From: Chelativorans alearensis
Lineage (GTDB): Bacteria > Pseudomonadota > Alphaproteobacteria > Rhizobiales > Rhizobiaceae
Length of the DNA: 64,000 nt
Direction of reading: 5' to 3'
Assembly: GCF_010993735.1 (NCBI RefSeq)
Contig: NZ_WQNI01000001.1
Coordinates: forward strand, 310,001-374,000
The notes under the pieces are model-generated. The model did no database searches. It was not told where the DNA came from and saw only the letters and a list, made by a program, of their open reading frames with translations. A program made the position numbers and the translations under genes. Shown piece after piece: positions 3,906 through 52,603 of this stretch. The first letter of the stretch is position 1, and every line of letters begins with the position of its first letter.

Positions 3906-3932
3906 AAAAAAGCCGGGCACAGCGGCCCGGCC
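3906..3932 (-). terminator. rho-independent terminator
   Basis: Read on the minus strand, a GC-rich stem (GCCGGGC paired with GCCCGGC around a short loop) is followed by six T. It lies about 225 bp beyond the GntR stop and upstream of the binding-protein promoter, separating the two units. The rest of 3768-4155 holds no gene that I can support. Confidence 0.75.
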
Positions 3933-4155
3933 AAGATGAAGGTCAGAAAACCTCCAGAGGGGAACCATCAGCGAAATGGGAGGAGAACGCTGATGCATAT
4001 TCGAGATAGGTAGGCAACTCGCGTGCTGCATGGAGCCATGCCGTTGCATCGATTGGACCAGTCGGAACAGCGCAACCGCCGATTTCGCGCCGCCCCCACT
4101 TCAATTTCTCAGCGTCTTCTTTCCTCGTCTCTCGCCCGCGCGGGGCTCTTGCAAA

Positions 4156-33003: not shown

Positions 33004-33018
33004 CACTCTTGGACGATG

Positions 33019-33178
33019 TCGATGGATTTTGAGTCCTTGCTCGGACCCCCACCCCTTACCCCTCCCCTCAAGGGGGAGGGGGACGCCGACGTCTCAGAAT
33101 CCCCCTCCCCCTTGAGGGGAGGGGTAAGGGGTGGGGGTTCGGCGAAGCCGGCAAGAATGACTCAAATGCGATAACCCT
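33019..33178 (+). repeat. GC-rich palindromic element, copy 1
   Basis: A 37-bp arm at 33046-33082 is perfectly inverted at 33101-33137, with an 18-bp loop. The arms are polypyrimidine/polypurine (CCCCCACCCC ... GGGGGAGGGGG). The outer ends (GATGGATTTTGAGTC left, TGACTCAAATGCGATAACCCT right) match the termini of three other copies in the window. It lies between smoE and the first permease gene, 17 bp before the latter's ATG. Confidence 0.85.
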
Positions 33179-38328: not shown

Positions 38329-39018
38329 ATGAAGAACGGCCGCCTCGTCATCTTCGACTGCGACGGTGTTCTGGTCGACAGCGAGCCTATTTCCATCGCC
38401 GTTCTGGTGGAGATCATTGCCGAGGCCGGGGTGGCGATCGAGCCGGCGGTCGCCTATCGCCGCTTCCTCGGCCGCTCCATGGCGAGCATCGCCAAGGCGG
38501 TGGAGGAGGAATGCGGCCTTGCCATGACGGACGGACATCTGGAAGAGATGCGGGCGCGGCTCTATGAGCGCTTCCGCCGGGAGTTGAAGCCCATTCCCGG
38601 CCTCGCGGAGGCGCTTGCCGGACTTACGGCCGCGCGCTGCGTCGCCTCCTCCAGCCAGCCCGAGCGCATCCGGCTTTCCCTGGGTGTGACGGGCTTGCTT
38701 CCCCATTTCGAGCCGCACATCTACAGCGCCACGATGGTGGCGAACGGCAAGCCGGCGCCGGACCTTTTCCTCCACGCCGCAAATATGATGGGGGTGGAGC
38801 CGGCCGGGTGCGTCGTCGTCGAGGACAGCCCCGCCGGCATCGAGGCGGCGCGGCGCGCCGGCATGCAGGTGGTGGCTTTCGCCGGCGGCTCCCACGCCGC
38901 CCCCGCCGGCCTCAAGGCCGCATTCGAGACGCTCGGGCCTGACCACATCCTCGAAGACATGCGCGAGCTTCCATCGCTGCTTGCAGGGCTTGGCGATGGG
39001 TGGGCGGGATCAGGATAG
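38329..39018 (+). CDS. HAD superfamily hydrolase, beta-phosphoglucomutase-like
   Basis: A 229-residue HAD phosphatase. Motif I is [13 protein letters not shown] (nucleophile Asp and general-acid Asp); a helical cap follows ([19 protein letters not shown]). Motif II is [10 protein letters not shown], motif III the Lys of [14 protein letters not shown] and motif [20 protein letters not shown]. Likely substrates are sugar or polyol phosphates. It follows the mannitol dehydrogenase gene after the 105-bp repeat, so it may remove phosphate from by-products of polyol metabolism. ATG at 38329 has no strong ribosome-binding site. The 3' end overlaps the convergent gene by 9 bp. Confidence 0.85.
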
Positions 39019-41697
39019 AACCGGCGCGGCGATCTCGCGGACCAGCGGCTCCAGGCCGGGATTGGGGAAGACGAAGGGGGTGCCGTCGACGGATAGCCCC
39101 CGCGCGTAATCGAGGACCAGCGTTGCCCTGCCGGTGCGGGTGAGCGTGGCGCGCATGGCGCCGGCGTCGAATGCGAGGGAGGTGCCGGTGAGGGTCTTTG
39201 CCACGGTGGAGGTATCGGCGCCCTGGGGCAGTTCTCCCACCAGCGCCGCCCAGGCGACTTTCCTCCCGTAGGCGCGGTACTCGCACCCGGCCCCCGGGCC
39301 TTCGCTCACCTTTACGATGGGTGCGGAGGCGGTGAGGGCGGCGAAGCCGCGGCCGGCGCGCAGGATGAGCCAGTTGTCCTTCAGAACGCGTTCGTCGAAG
39401 CCGTCCTCCGGGGCGTAGACGTGGGTGAAATCCACCCGCGCGCCCTTAAGGTCGTAAAGCATGAGAAGTGCGTCCTCATGGCTCCCGACGCGCGGCATGA
39501 CGCCGTTGCCGGCCCAATAGGAGGGGCGGTGATGGCCCCAGGGGTCGTCCTCGCCGGGATGGTTGATCCAGGCGCGCGCGAAGGGATGGCTCGCGAACAG
39601 GATATCCATGACGTGCTGCTGGTGGCCGTGCTGGCCGGGCGTGCCGTCGACGGAAGCGGAAAGCTGCACGGCGGCGCGCTTGTAGAGCGCGAGCTTGGCC
39701 GCGTTGTCGTAGCCCTGGACGTAATGCGCGATGAGCGCCCTCCCCTCGGGCGGAGAGGCATAGCGGGAAAGCCCTTGCGGCGGCGTGTAGTTGCCTGCCG
39801 CGAACATCGGCAGGGCGGCGACGCCGTTGTTGAGCCAGCCCGTGCCGAAGGCGACAGTGGCAAAGGGGGAAAGCTCGGTGAGCGGGCCGGCGCGCAACTC
39901 CTTGTCGTAGGCGCGGCCCATGGTGCCGGCGGATACACCGCCGAGCGTGTGCAGGGCGATCATGGTGAAGAGGCGGTCGAGCAGCTTTTCCGTGCGCTCC
40001 CTGAGCGCGCCGTCCGCCCAGTGCTGCAGCGCCAGAAGGCCGATGAAATCGATCGGGTAGTAGGCCGCCGAGTTCCATTCGGCGAGGCCGTGCGCCTCGA
40101 CCGAGCCGAACCATTTGCCGAGCCGCTCCGCCGCCAGCGCCGCCTGCTCGCGGCCGGTGCGTCCTGAGGCGGTGAAGGTGTCTTCGGGCAAGAGTCGGCC
40201 GGCGAGATATTGCGAGACGTGGAAGCACAGGACGTGGTTCTCGCTCCAGAACCACATGACGTCGTTGCCCGGCTCGTCGACCCAGTAGCGGTAGTCGAGC
40301 ACGGAGCGGCGGATGCGCGCGGCCGTCGCCGCCGGCAGGGCCTCACCGTATGCACCGTAAAGCCACAAGAGCGGGACCATGACGAAGTCGGAGCAGTCGC
40401 GCCGCTCGTCGATCATCGTCAGCGTGTCCGAGACTATCGAGACAAGGGTGTCATCCGCCTTTCCGCCCAGGGCTATCGCATATGAGTCATTTTTGCTGGC
40501 TTCGCCGGAACCCCCACCCCTCACCCCTCCCCTCAAGGGGGAGGGGGGCGCCAACGTTTCAGTATCCCCCTCCCCCTTGAGGGGAGGGGTGGGGGGTGGG
40601 GGTTCGAGCAAGGACTCAGAATCCATATGCGATAGCCCTGCCTCTCCGCCCATGGCCAGCATGGCGAGCGCCCGGCCGACCCTGAGATCGCCGTGGGCGG
40701 CGGCGAAGGCCAGCGCCTCGCGCTTGCGGCCTTGCAGATCGGCGGCGCGAGCAGGCGGCACCGTCTCGCGCAGGAGCGCGAAGCCGACATGCCGCTCCAC
40801 CCGCGCCTCGCCGATCTCGAAGGTGAGGTCGAGCGGGTGGTAACCGCCCGCAAGCCCCTCCAGCCCGGCGAGCGCCACTTGGGTACCGCCCGCGTCCAGC
40901 ACCGCCCTGGCGGTGAAGAGCGGCGGCTTGTGGCGCATATGGACGCTCTGCTGAACCTTGGCCGTCACCGTCACATCGCTTGCTGCCGGCGTGTCGAAGG
41001 CAAGGACGAGCGGACCGCCGGTGAAGACCTCGCGCTCGGGGCGGACATCGGCCGCAAGCCGCATCAGCGTCGCGAGGTCAGCGGCATTTGCCCCGCCGGG
41101 CACGCCGGCCTGAAGCGCCTCATCGCAGAGCGAGGTCAGCTCGACGTACCAGTTGGTGTCGCGCTCGGCGAGGTCCTCCGACAGCATGACGACCTCGCTG
41201 CCGCCGGATTTGAGCGGCAGGACGATCTCCGTCGCTTGCTCCTCGTTGCGGGTAAAGGGTTCGAACTTGATCGCGAGCACGCCGTCCACCCAGATGTGGA
41301 CGCCGCCGCAGGTGGCGAGACGGAAGCGGCAGTCGCCACCCTCGGGCGGCACGAGGACCGTGCAGCACCAGCGCCTGAGCCGCGTCGGGCGGTGCCAGAA
41401 ACCGGAGAACTCCAGCCGCCGGTTGAAGCCGGGCAGGTTGACGGTATCGACCGGCCAATCCGTCTCAAGCTCCACCTTGCGGGTTTTGACCTCCGCCCAC
41501 CAGGCGACCCGGCAAGGCAGATCGCCTACGTCCACGAAACCGTTGATGAAGCGGTAATTGACGCGGTCTTCGGCGGGCGCCGGCTTGCCGGGATAATAGG
41601 CGGTGTCGAGCGGCGACAGCGCCCAGGCGGTCACCGTCTCGCCGGGCCCGACCGGGAAGAACGCCATGCCGTCGTTGCCCTTCGCACGCGCGCTCAT
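39010..41697 (-). CDS. 895-residue protein of unknown family, carrying an in-frame palindromic-element insertion
   Basis: I do not recognise a named family. The N-terminal 300 residues look beta-rich ([40 protein letters not shown], like a carbohydrate-binding sandwich). Residues about 415-800 look like an alpha/alpha-toroid ([81 protein letters not shown]), with many Trp, His and acidic residues as in glycosidases or lyases. A beta-rich tail follows. No signal peptide is evident. Residues 353-410 ([11 protein letters not shown] ... SYAIAL) are encoded by a palindromic element. ATG overlaps the HAD gene stop (ATGA), tying it to the mannosidase/importer locus. A novel glycan-active enzyme is my inference. 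Confidence 0.75.
40469..40639 (-). repeat. GC-rich palindromic element, copy 2, inserted in frame within a gene
   Basis: The terminal inverted repeats AGGGCTATCGCATATG (40469-40484) and its exact complement (40624-40639) enclose the same polypyrimidine/polypurine palindrome as the other copies. The flanks GCCTTTCCGCCC (40457-40468) and GCCTCTCCGCCC (40640-40651) are near-perfect 12-bp direct repeats, as expected for target duplication. The element is 171 bp and the added total is 183 bp, both multiples of three, so the host frame stays open. Confidence 0.9.
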
Positions 41698-42992
41698 GCT
41701 TCGGCTCCGGCAGCCTCACGGTGTTCCCTCACGTTCTGTTGCTGCATCGCCGCCTCGATCTCGTGAAGCAGCGGGAGAACGTCGGAAGGTGTAAAGACCG
41801 AATAGTCGGGCCGCTCGCTTTCGTCGGCGGGCTCGTGCGTGCGCCGGCGCGACCGGCCGAAGAAGATGCTGGGAATGCCGAAGGCGTTGGCACCCTTGAT
41901 GTCGCGGGAGAGATTGTTGCCGATCATCACGGTCGAGCGGGCATCGGACCCCCGCAAACCGAGCCGCTCCAAGGCGGCCGCGAACATCTTCGGCGAAGGC
42001 TTCAGCTCGCCGACCTCCCCTGAAATGATGTGAGCCTCGAAGAGGCCCCAGAGGCCAGCCGGTTTCAGGATGTTCTCGAAGGTTTCGCGCGGGCCGTCGG
42101 CCACGAGCGCGAGGCGGTAGCCGGCGGCAGCGATGTGGCGCACCATGTCCGCCGCACCCGGGATCAGCTCGGCGCGCACCACCACTTCGCTGCCCGGCAG
42201 CTTTTCTTCCGTTGCCTCATCGGCGATCGTGTCGCCGCAGTCGAACAGGACGGCGCGGATGTGCGGGATCTCCAGCGGCAACTCGGCGATCAGCCGGGCC
42301 ACCCGCGCCGGTATCCAGCGCTCGAGCGCCTCCCACGGGACGAGCGAGACGCCCTCCCCTTCATCGCTGTTCCGGGTGAAGGCGAAAGAGGGATCGAAGG
42401 CATCCGCCTTCATCTTGAGCTTGGCCAGCCTGTGATCGAAGGCGGTGGGGGCAATCCTTCCGCTCTGGCAGAAGACATTGCCGAGATGCACGCCCTCCCA
42501 TGCCGCAAGCTCGTTGCACAACACGGAGATGAGCCGGCCGGCCTTCTCCTCCATCTCGGCGGGGTCGGCCCAATGGGCGTGCTTGCCGGCCTCCGCATAG
42601 AGCACGGGGCGGCCCCTAGGCATCCGGCAAAGCCTGCCGTCGGCCGTCATCGCAAGACGCCTTCCGTGGCGGGAGGCCTCCACCCTTTCGACTTTGCCGG
42701 TTCCATCGAGATAGACCCACACATGTTCCAGATCGTACATGTGCCCGATGTCCCAATCGTACCAGACCGCGTATTCGATCACGGCACCGCCAAGCGGCCT
42801 CACCTGGAATTTCGAGGACGGCGACTGACCAGGCTCCCGGAAAACCGTATAGCCCATCGCAAGCGGCGGATAGGGCTCGTGGGCATCCAGCATTAGAAGA
42901 GGCATATGGGCGCGCGCCAGAGCGTAATCGGCGCCGGCCGCACCCCGCCGTAGTTTTTCCAGCGTACCGCTCATCCCATCATTTTGGCTCAT
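41694..42992 (-). CDS. HAD-family hydrolase with extra N-terminal domain
   Basis: A 432-residue two-part protein. The N-terminal 230 residues show [60 protein letters not shown] and AGKHAHW. The Y-x-DW-x-H-x-DLEH pattern recalls the VPS62/NPP1-type fold that binds a metal, though I cannot confirm it. The C-terminal part is a HAD phosphatase: [13 protein letters not shown] (motif I, variant DxGDT as in HDHD3-like proteins), [24 protein letters not shown] and [18 protein letters not shown]. The start overlaps the ABC ATPase stop (ATGA), and its own stop overlaps the 895-residue gene start. Possible role: dephosphorylating or de-esterifying an imported glycan product. Confidence 0.75.
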
Positions 42993-45060: not shown

Positions 45061-45076
45061 TGTTTGCCTCCGCGCC

Positions 45077-45258
45077 AATCGCATATGGATTCTGAGTCTT
45101 TGATCGGACCCCCACCCCTCACCCCTCCCCTCAAGGGGGAGGGGGATTCTGAAAGGTCGGCGCCCCCTTCCCCCTTGAGGGGAGGGGTGAGGGGTGGGGG
45201 TTCCGGCGAAGCCGGCAAAAATAGTTCATAGGCAAAAGCGCTTTCCATACGATTCCCC
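45077..45258 (+). repeat. GC-rich palindromic element, copy 3
   Basis: The left end AATCGCATATGGATTCTGAGTC and right end CCATACGATTCCCCT are related to the copy 2 termini, with the same central CCCCCACCCC ... GGGGTGGGGG palindrome. It fills the gap between the permease stop (45259) and the first ATPase GTG. The right end has drifted, with some 20 bp of extra sequence. Confidence 0.8.
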
Positions 45259-52408: not shown

Positions 52409-52439
52409 GACTACCCTCTCCCCAGTCGAGCCAAGGTCA

Positions 52440-52603
52440 ACGCATATGAGTTATTTTTGCCGGCTTCGCCGGGACCCCCACCCCTCACCCCTCCCCTCAA
52501 GGGGGAGGGGGGCGCCGACGCCTCAGAATCCCCCTCCCCCTTGAGGGGAGGGGTAAGGGGTGGGGGTCCGAGCAAGAAATCACAATCCATATGCGATTGC
52601 CCT
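52440..52603 (-). repeat. GC-rich palindromic element, copy 4
   Basis: The ends ACGCATATGAG and CCATATGCGATTGCCCT match copy 2, with the same central palindrome. Its right end overlaps the 3' end of the alpha-mannosidase gene and encodes the last codons (AIAYGL) and stop. The short repeat CTCCCCAG occurs just outside both ends (52418-52425 and 52602-52609). Confidence 0.85.

Follow-up and report, generated by a model that had tools for sequence, protein, structure and literature searches.

How does a long palindrome come to lie in frame inside a conserved protein-coding gene, and what becomes of the protein? The question arises in a stretch of 64,000 nucleotides from Chelativorans alearensis, here called the window, in which a gene of 895 codons (39010–41697, minus strand) contains a near-perfect (imperfect) palindrome of 173 bp at 40468–40640. 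The gene is conserved in Hyphomicrobiales without the insert, and its product matches no Pfam or NCBIfam family and has no convincing match in the PDB. The answer we favour, with a probability of about 0.75, is that the palindrome is a non-autonomous miniature inverted-repeat transposable element (MITE) that is mobilised by an ISAs1-family transposase, that its in-frame landings are tolerated and that its peptide is predicted to form part of the protein.

An inserted palindrome and its empty sites

The MITE (40468–40640, plus strand), delimited by flank statistics and by the palindrome itself, is bounded by 17-bp terminal inverted repeats, the left one at 40468–40484 on the plus strand (CAGGGCTATCGCATATG) and the right one, its exact reverse complement, at 40624–40640 on the minus strand. 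Between them lies a core palindrome (40508–40605) made of two 40-bp arms that are 98% complementary, with 18 bp between them. Folded as RNA, the element strand reaches −136.9 kcal/mol compared to −71.4 (s.d. 4.5) for shuffled sequences, which corresponds to a z score of −14.5, with none of 200 shuffles as good. Sites for CcrM (GANTC) stand beside the terminal repeats at 40484–40488, 40613–40617 and 40619–40623; across the family there are 2.24 such sites per copy compared to 0.58 in shuffles, and they might couple transposition to the cell cycle.

The palindrome lies where the original prediction had placed it, but its dimensions changed from 171 bp with 16-bp terminal repeats to 173 bp with 17-bp repeats, and with them changed the reading of its flanks. 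Direct repeats of 12 bp had been proposed as the target duplication, and these are present with one mismatch. The length of the duplication itself was taken from the 43 of 79 family copies that keep both ends. When the terminal C/G is assigned to the element, flank identity is maximal at 10 bp, with a mean of 0.60 compared to 0.40 for flanks paired across different copies, and 19 of the 43 copies have 10-bp flanks that are at least 70% identical (8.5% in the control). Defined as 171 bp plus 12 bp, the family shows its peak at 12 bp and a lower identity (0.54; 12 of 43 copies). No duplication at the 70% level is seen in the other 24 two-ended copies, many of which lie within palindromes and so leave direct repeats hard to distinguish from inverted ones. 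Taken singly, the window copy fits both readings; as the family flank statistics favour 10 bp, we prefer 10 bp over 12 as the length of the duplication. Its two copies, at 40458–40467 (CCTTTCCGCC) and 40641–40650 (CCTCTCCGCC) on the plus strand, differ by one mismatch and correspond to sequence that C. xinjiangense has only once at its empty site.

Element and duplication together (173 + 10) make 183 bp, exactly 61 codons, and the 895-residue frame stays open across the insertion, both as originally reported. The inserted codons (residues 353–413; 40458–40640, minus strand) number 61. As originally described, their peptide is in frame and rich in proline and glycine, which make up 33% of it, with 18% large hydrophobic residues. 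On both sides of the insert the best coding score falls in one and the same frame (27 versus 6 and 29 versus −12).

That the segment is missing elsewhere was borne out by comparison with orthologs. The DNA of both of the closest relatives found, C. xinjiangense (whose protein is 94% identical) and C. salis, shows an empty site, and in each of the best 80 of the 225 ortholog loci found, all of them named, the parts of the protein on either side of the insertion point join directly and come out 1–2 residues shorter than the window protein minus its insert. A separate alignment of 82 rows, two of which repeat genes already listed, places 3 residues opposite the 61 of the window protein in 74 rows, those in the right frame. 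Most of the insert is flanked by two nearly invariant residues, A345 and G411 (alignment of the window protein with 31 orthologs, n = 32). The insertion into the 895-codon gene is thereby confirmed.

The family and a candidate mobiliser

We collected 79 distinct copies of at least 90 aligned bp, 32 in the genome of C. alearensis, 42 in C. xinjiangense and 5 in C. salis, counted from the stretches fetched around matches in these three genomes only, the first of which is a draft of 36 contigs. In a DNA search of the C. alearensis genome in which 40 of 64 candidates were scored, at least 87 pieces matched, counting both strands. Four family copies lie inside the window. Besides the one in the 895-codon gene, these are a copy between two genes (33009–33178, minus strand), one just upstream of an oppD-like gene (45072–45242, minus strand) that is common to C. 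xinjiangense and not found in C. salis, and one at the 3′ end of a gene (52433–52603, plus strand), to which it gives the last residues (RAIAYGL) and the stop, and which is likewise present in C. xinjiangense and not in C. salis. The window also holds an ar15 family small RNA (Rfam RF02345) at 3908–3995 on the minus strand.

Thus the segment is absent from the compared orthologs and has relatives between genes, the reverse of the orthologs with the segment and the missing intergenic relatives that would have spoken for an ordinary part of the protein. The observations support an in-frame palindromic insertion with a target duplication that is without counterpart in orthologs and resembles many copies in the genome. 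With its terminal inverted repeats, target duplication, many copies and presence that is polymorphic between close relatives, and with no transposase gene, the element is a MITE.

Beyond these species the family thins out. Among 201 genomes searched with the 171-bp core of the element (40469–40639), with up to four candidates scored in each, whole-element matches were found only in C. alearensis, C. xinjiangense and C. salis, and matches at E ≤ 1 × 10−10 that include the core or parts of it in 27 genomes, those three included; other genera have a core that is very similar but lacks the outer ends. A plasmid collection contained no match to the element or its peptide. In C. alearensis, core arms also stand in outward-facing order about 150 bp apart (C1:145912–146060, C1:246880–247030 and C33:42355–42506), which may represent another kind of element, with the arm serving as its ends.

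The terminal repeat has a wider reach of its own. Exact matches occur in 10 viral contigs, all of which were scanned for terminal repeats, with open reading frames read in three (L250, L253 and L257) and contig ends in four. Other cores, too, are bounded by this terminal repeat: MITEs of 201–257 bp with 0–4 mismatches in their ends (L269–L274 and L251) were found in the genomes G120, G149 and G004 and in one viral-contig record. Three of these seven loci, all in G120, have perfect 10-bp duplications, the one in G004 has 9 of 10 positions identical, and three show none that is clear.

Through the terminal repeat we also found an insertion sequence of 1281 bp in C. xinjiangense (G002 C13:124975–126255). 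It is spanned by a 444-codon frame that matches the ISAs1 family profile NF033564 with 279.5 bits as well as the Pfam domains DDE_Tnp_1 and DDE_Tnp_1_assoc. Its right end equals the terminal repeat of the element at 17 of 17 positions and its left end, which stands in an 89-bp tandem duplication, at 14 of 17; the comparison covers the ends only, the interior of the MITE being a separate, widespread palindrome. The one full copy sits in a palindrome and has no clean 10-bp duplication (5 of 10 positions by eye). The terminus recurs at five contig ends, a pattern that fits a repeated insertion sequence collapsed in assembly. No relative of this transposase at E ≤ 1 × 10−15 was found in C. alearensis, C. 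salis, G004, G120 or G149, so that in the draft genome of C. alearensis the mobiliser would be missing or unassembled. ISAs1 elements make duplications of 8–10 bp. Among known systems, ISAs1 insertion sequences and the MITEs derived from insertion sequences come close: the element has its 17-bp terminal repeat in common with an ISAs1 element, is flanked by a 10-bp duplication and carries no transposase gene. The shared ends and duplications point to an ISAs1-family element as the likely mobiliser of the MITE, whose transposase would recognise the 17-bp ends in trans and insert the element through a 10-bp staggered cut, which would leave the 10-bp duplication, often within GC-rich palindromes.

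Open frames inside genes

We regarded a copy as in frame if the reading frame is open through it and has the best coding score of the six frames on both sides. Five of the 79 copies passed, which represent four events in three genes: the 895-codon gene, a nitrate-reductase-like gene (in C. alearensis and C. xinjiangense) and a HAD-type gene (two copies). A codon score over 300 nt missed the nitrate reductase copies and both copies in the HAD-type gene, which this longer-range test found. It detects open frames only and gives no rate of gene breakage; for this reason we dropped the statement that all intragenic events are in frame.

The nitrate-reductase-like gene, with molybdopterin domains, is open over 990 codons in C. 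alearensis and 1004 in C. xinjiangense. Its copies (G000 C16:44633–44806, L134; G002 C53:125689–125862, L217) are nested, in both species, within an outer CATCTCCCCC-type palindrome that in G008 also lies in frame in the same loop. Twelve of the 13 aligned loci were readable at this loop. C. salis has a different insert there, G011 a short remnant-like piece and G007 its own short segment; there is little or nothing in G003, G009, G010, G012, G029 and G032. Between the two species, the 52 codons of the element differ by 7 nonsynonymous and 1 synonymous changes, with no stop, compared to 31 nonsynonymous and 55 synonymous among 548 codons upstream and 22 and 25 among 337 downstream. Amino-acid change has been free in this one shared case: although the numbers are small, the frame is kept and the sequence is not, as would be the case for a tolerated passenger.

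In C. xinjiangense, a HAD-type gene stays open over 587 codons through two copies in opposite orientations (G002 C1:126306–126476 and 126749–126919, L177), both absent from C. alearensis and C. salis. The gene is orthologous to positions 41694–42992 of the window, next to the interrupted gene. The two copies use the two mirror frames of the palindrome; around the second, the flanking coding scores are low (−11 and 2), yet the best of six.

In another genus, the core without its outer ends lies in frame in hrpB of G223 (TIGR01970, 988 bits), and by alignment hrpB of G251 has an in-frame core too. At the same loop G253 and G254 have other Pro/Gly-rich segments, G045 is without about 36 residues and G252, a partial contig, has a short segment. 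This hrpB frame was the only one to pass among the 14 of 22 loci tested in other genera. One HrpB loop in the genus g31 (L337–L341) holds Pro/Gly-rich segments that differ between species; of the four species with a segment, at least two have one derived from a palindrome, and a fifth has almost nothing there.

Counting copies inside genes across the genome, as the original prediction had suggested, put the window copy in perspective: among the 32 copies located in C. alearensis, to which our survey of gene breakage applied, only 2 are known to lie in frame inside genes. Eight others, flanked on either side by same-strand coding sequence, lie at gene boundaries, with the upstream stop in a span from 57 bp ahead of the element start to 21 bp past it. 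The other 22 include 11 at which the stop of a neighbouring gene falls from 53 nt before to 29 nt after the element edge, 6 with no gene reading toward them by coding score and 5 at which a gene frame runs 47–279 nt past the edge (C23:322704, C33:30888, C1:155090, C5:86622 and C1:159511), which may be truncated or extended genes.

How readily would such an element leave a gene open? The palindrome has two mirror-image open frames, one per orientation, which all five in-frame copies use; they are open in 24 and 22 of 42 copies, compared to 1–6 of 42 for the other four frames. The mean number of open frames per copy is 1.40, against 1.21 after shuffling, and 28 of the 42 full-length copies have lengths that keep the frame with a 10-bp duplication, although the copies are related and their lengths not independent. 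When we simulated 12,600 insertions with the 42 copies, 16% were in frame and open, so that open landings need no special adaptation. If landings were harmless and random, in-frame copies would exceed the 2 of 32 seen, which suggests that most in-frame landings are harmful or that targets between genes are preferred. We thus picture a minority of genic landings that, because 183 bp are whole codons and one frame is open in each orientation, would not interrupt the reading frame and would lengthen the protein by about 61 Pro/Gly-rich residues. Selection on the host would then retain those whose extra loop the protein tolerates, in the present case one that separates the N- and C-terminal halves of the 895-residue product, and the peptide would most likely be an unconstrained passenger.

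A real insertion may nonetheless have effectively inactivated its gene, through the mRNA hairpin or the foreign loop, its open frame being a matter of chance in a young insertion. The insert may indeed be young, as both congeners lack it and little has changed in its ends and duplication; chance would produce an open frame in 16% of simulated cases, and a hairpin of −137 kcal/mol, which could stall ribosomes, is a possible block to making a working protein. Yet the gene flanks keep their best coding score in one frame, the nitrate reductase copy is still open in two species and one C. xinjiangense gene is open through two copies, and we consider inactivation possible but unlikely. We are more doubtful that the element itself has been selected as coding-compatible, with whole-codon lengths, a frame open in both orientations and genes as its safe sites. 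The lengths that keep the frame and the mirror pair, which alone is commonly open, would fit such a history; the relatedness of the copies, a number of open frames close to that of shuffled sequences and the two in-frame cases among 32 copies argue against it.

There is little to recommend the idea that the peptide is a useful loop or linker whose sequence selection has kept. Its Pro/Gly-rich composition with 18% large hydrophobic residues and the recurrence of inserts at one loop of nitrate reductase and one of HrpB across several species would suit a linker, but the excess of nonsynonymous over synonymous differences in the shared nitrate reductase copy speaks against conserved sequence, and relatives manage without the loop. 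Assembly error or contaminating sequence, conceivable in a draft of 36 contigs where repeats are prone to misassembly, has almost no probability left given a near-perfect duplication particular to this copy, an identity of 91–92% to the nearest relatives found and in-frame copies in an independent assembly. We therefore retain the reading of a transposed MITE with a tolerated in-frame peptide.

Relation to known coding palindromes

The original prediction compared the locus to the Rickettsia palindromic elements (RPE), and the parallel holds as an analogy of behaviour and not as membership by sequence. RPE are described as hairpin-forming repeats of 105–146 bp that, together with the Wolbachia palindromic elements, lie in frame in unrelated genes and also between genes (PMC10969869, PMC2229807, PMC4224334). 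The likeness consists of hairpin repeats in frame in unrelated protein genes, for which we have three genes and four events, and the core alone in hrpB; no relation of sequence is claimed. For RPE, a table in PMC2229807 gives '?' under target duplication; the present element has a duplication of 10 bp, its ends match those of a transposase-coding element, and its hosts are not Rickettsiales. By our analysis the element resembles RPE in behaviour, occurs in other hosts and comes with a candidate transposase and a duplication of measured length.

Other short repeats share single traits. ERIC, YPAL/RU-2 and QMITE are described as non-autonomous repeats whose open frames become joined in frame to genes (PMC2229807, PMC5896051), and QMITE are described there as forming the 3′ ends of functional annotated genes, with some lying mid-frame in hypothetical proteins (PMC5896051). 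Unlike these, the insertions reported here lie inside enzymes and in one case are nested. The CIR of Caulobacter and Brucella are alphaproteobacterial repeats tied to CcrM sites, and GANTC is frequent here too; they are described as strictly intergenic (PMC10969869), and a table gives their terminal repeats as '-', with a footnote (PMC2229807). In the titles and abstract openings searched, no ISAs1-type MITE is reported in protein genes. Nor did the literature covered, on in-frame MITEs of Rhizobiales, ISAs1 MITEs and target sites, Chelativorans repeats and coding palindromes of Rhizobium, contain a report of this element; most subscription journals lie outside that coverage.

A bolder reading, which we put forward tentatively and think more apt to fail than to hold, is that transposase-driven palindromes in Hyphomicrobiales repeatedly enter the same tolerant enzyme loops in frame, nest there and continually supply disordered loops, so that the frame-preserving length and the mirror frame would be adaptations to coding DNA. 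Protein-coding palindromes would then not be peculiar to intracellular Rickettsiales. Independently of this, the family provides a system comparable to RPE in which the ends are defined, the duplication can be measured, the transposase family is named, one insertion is nested and close genomes show empty sites. These features make it testable whether in-frame palindromes are survivors of selection or elements shaped for coding DNA, and also whether proteins tolerate such loops or use them.
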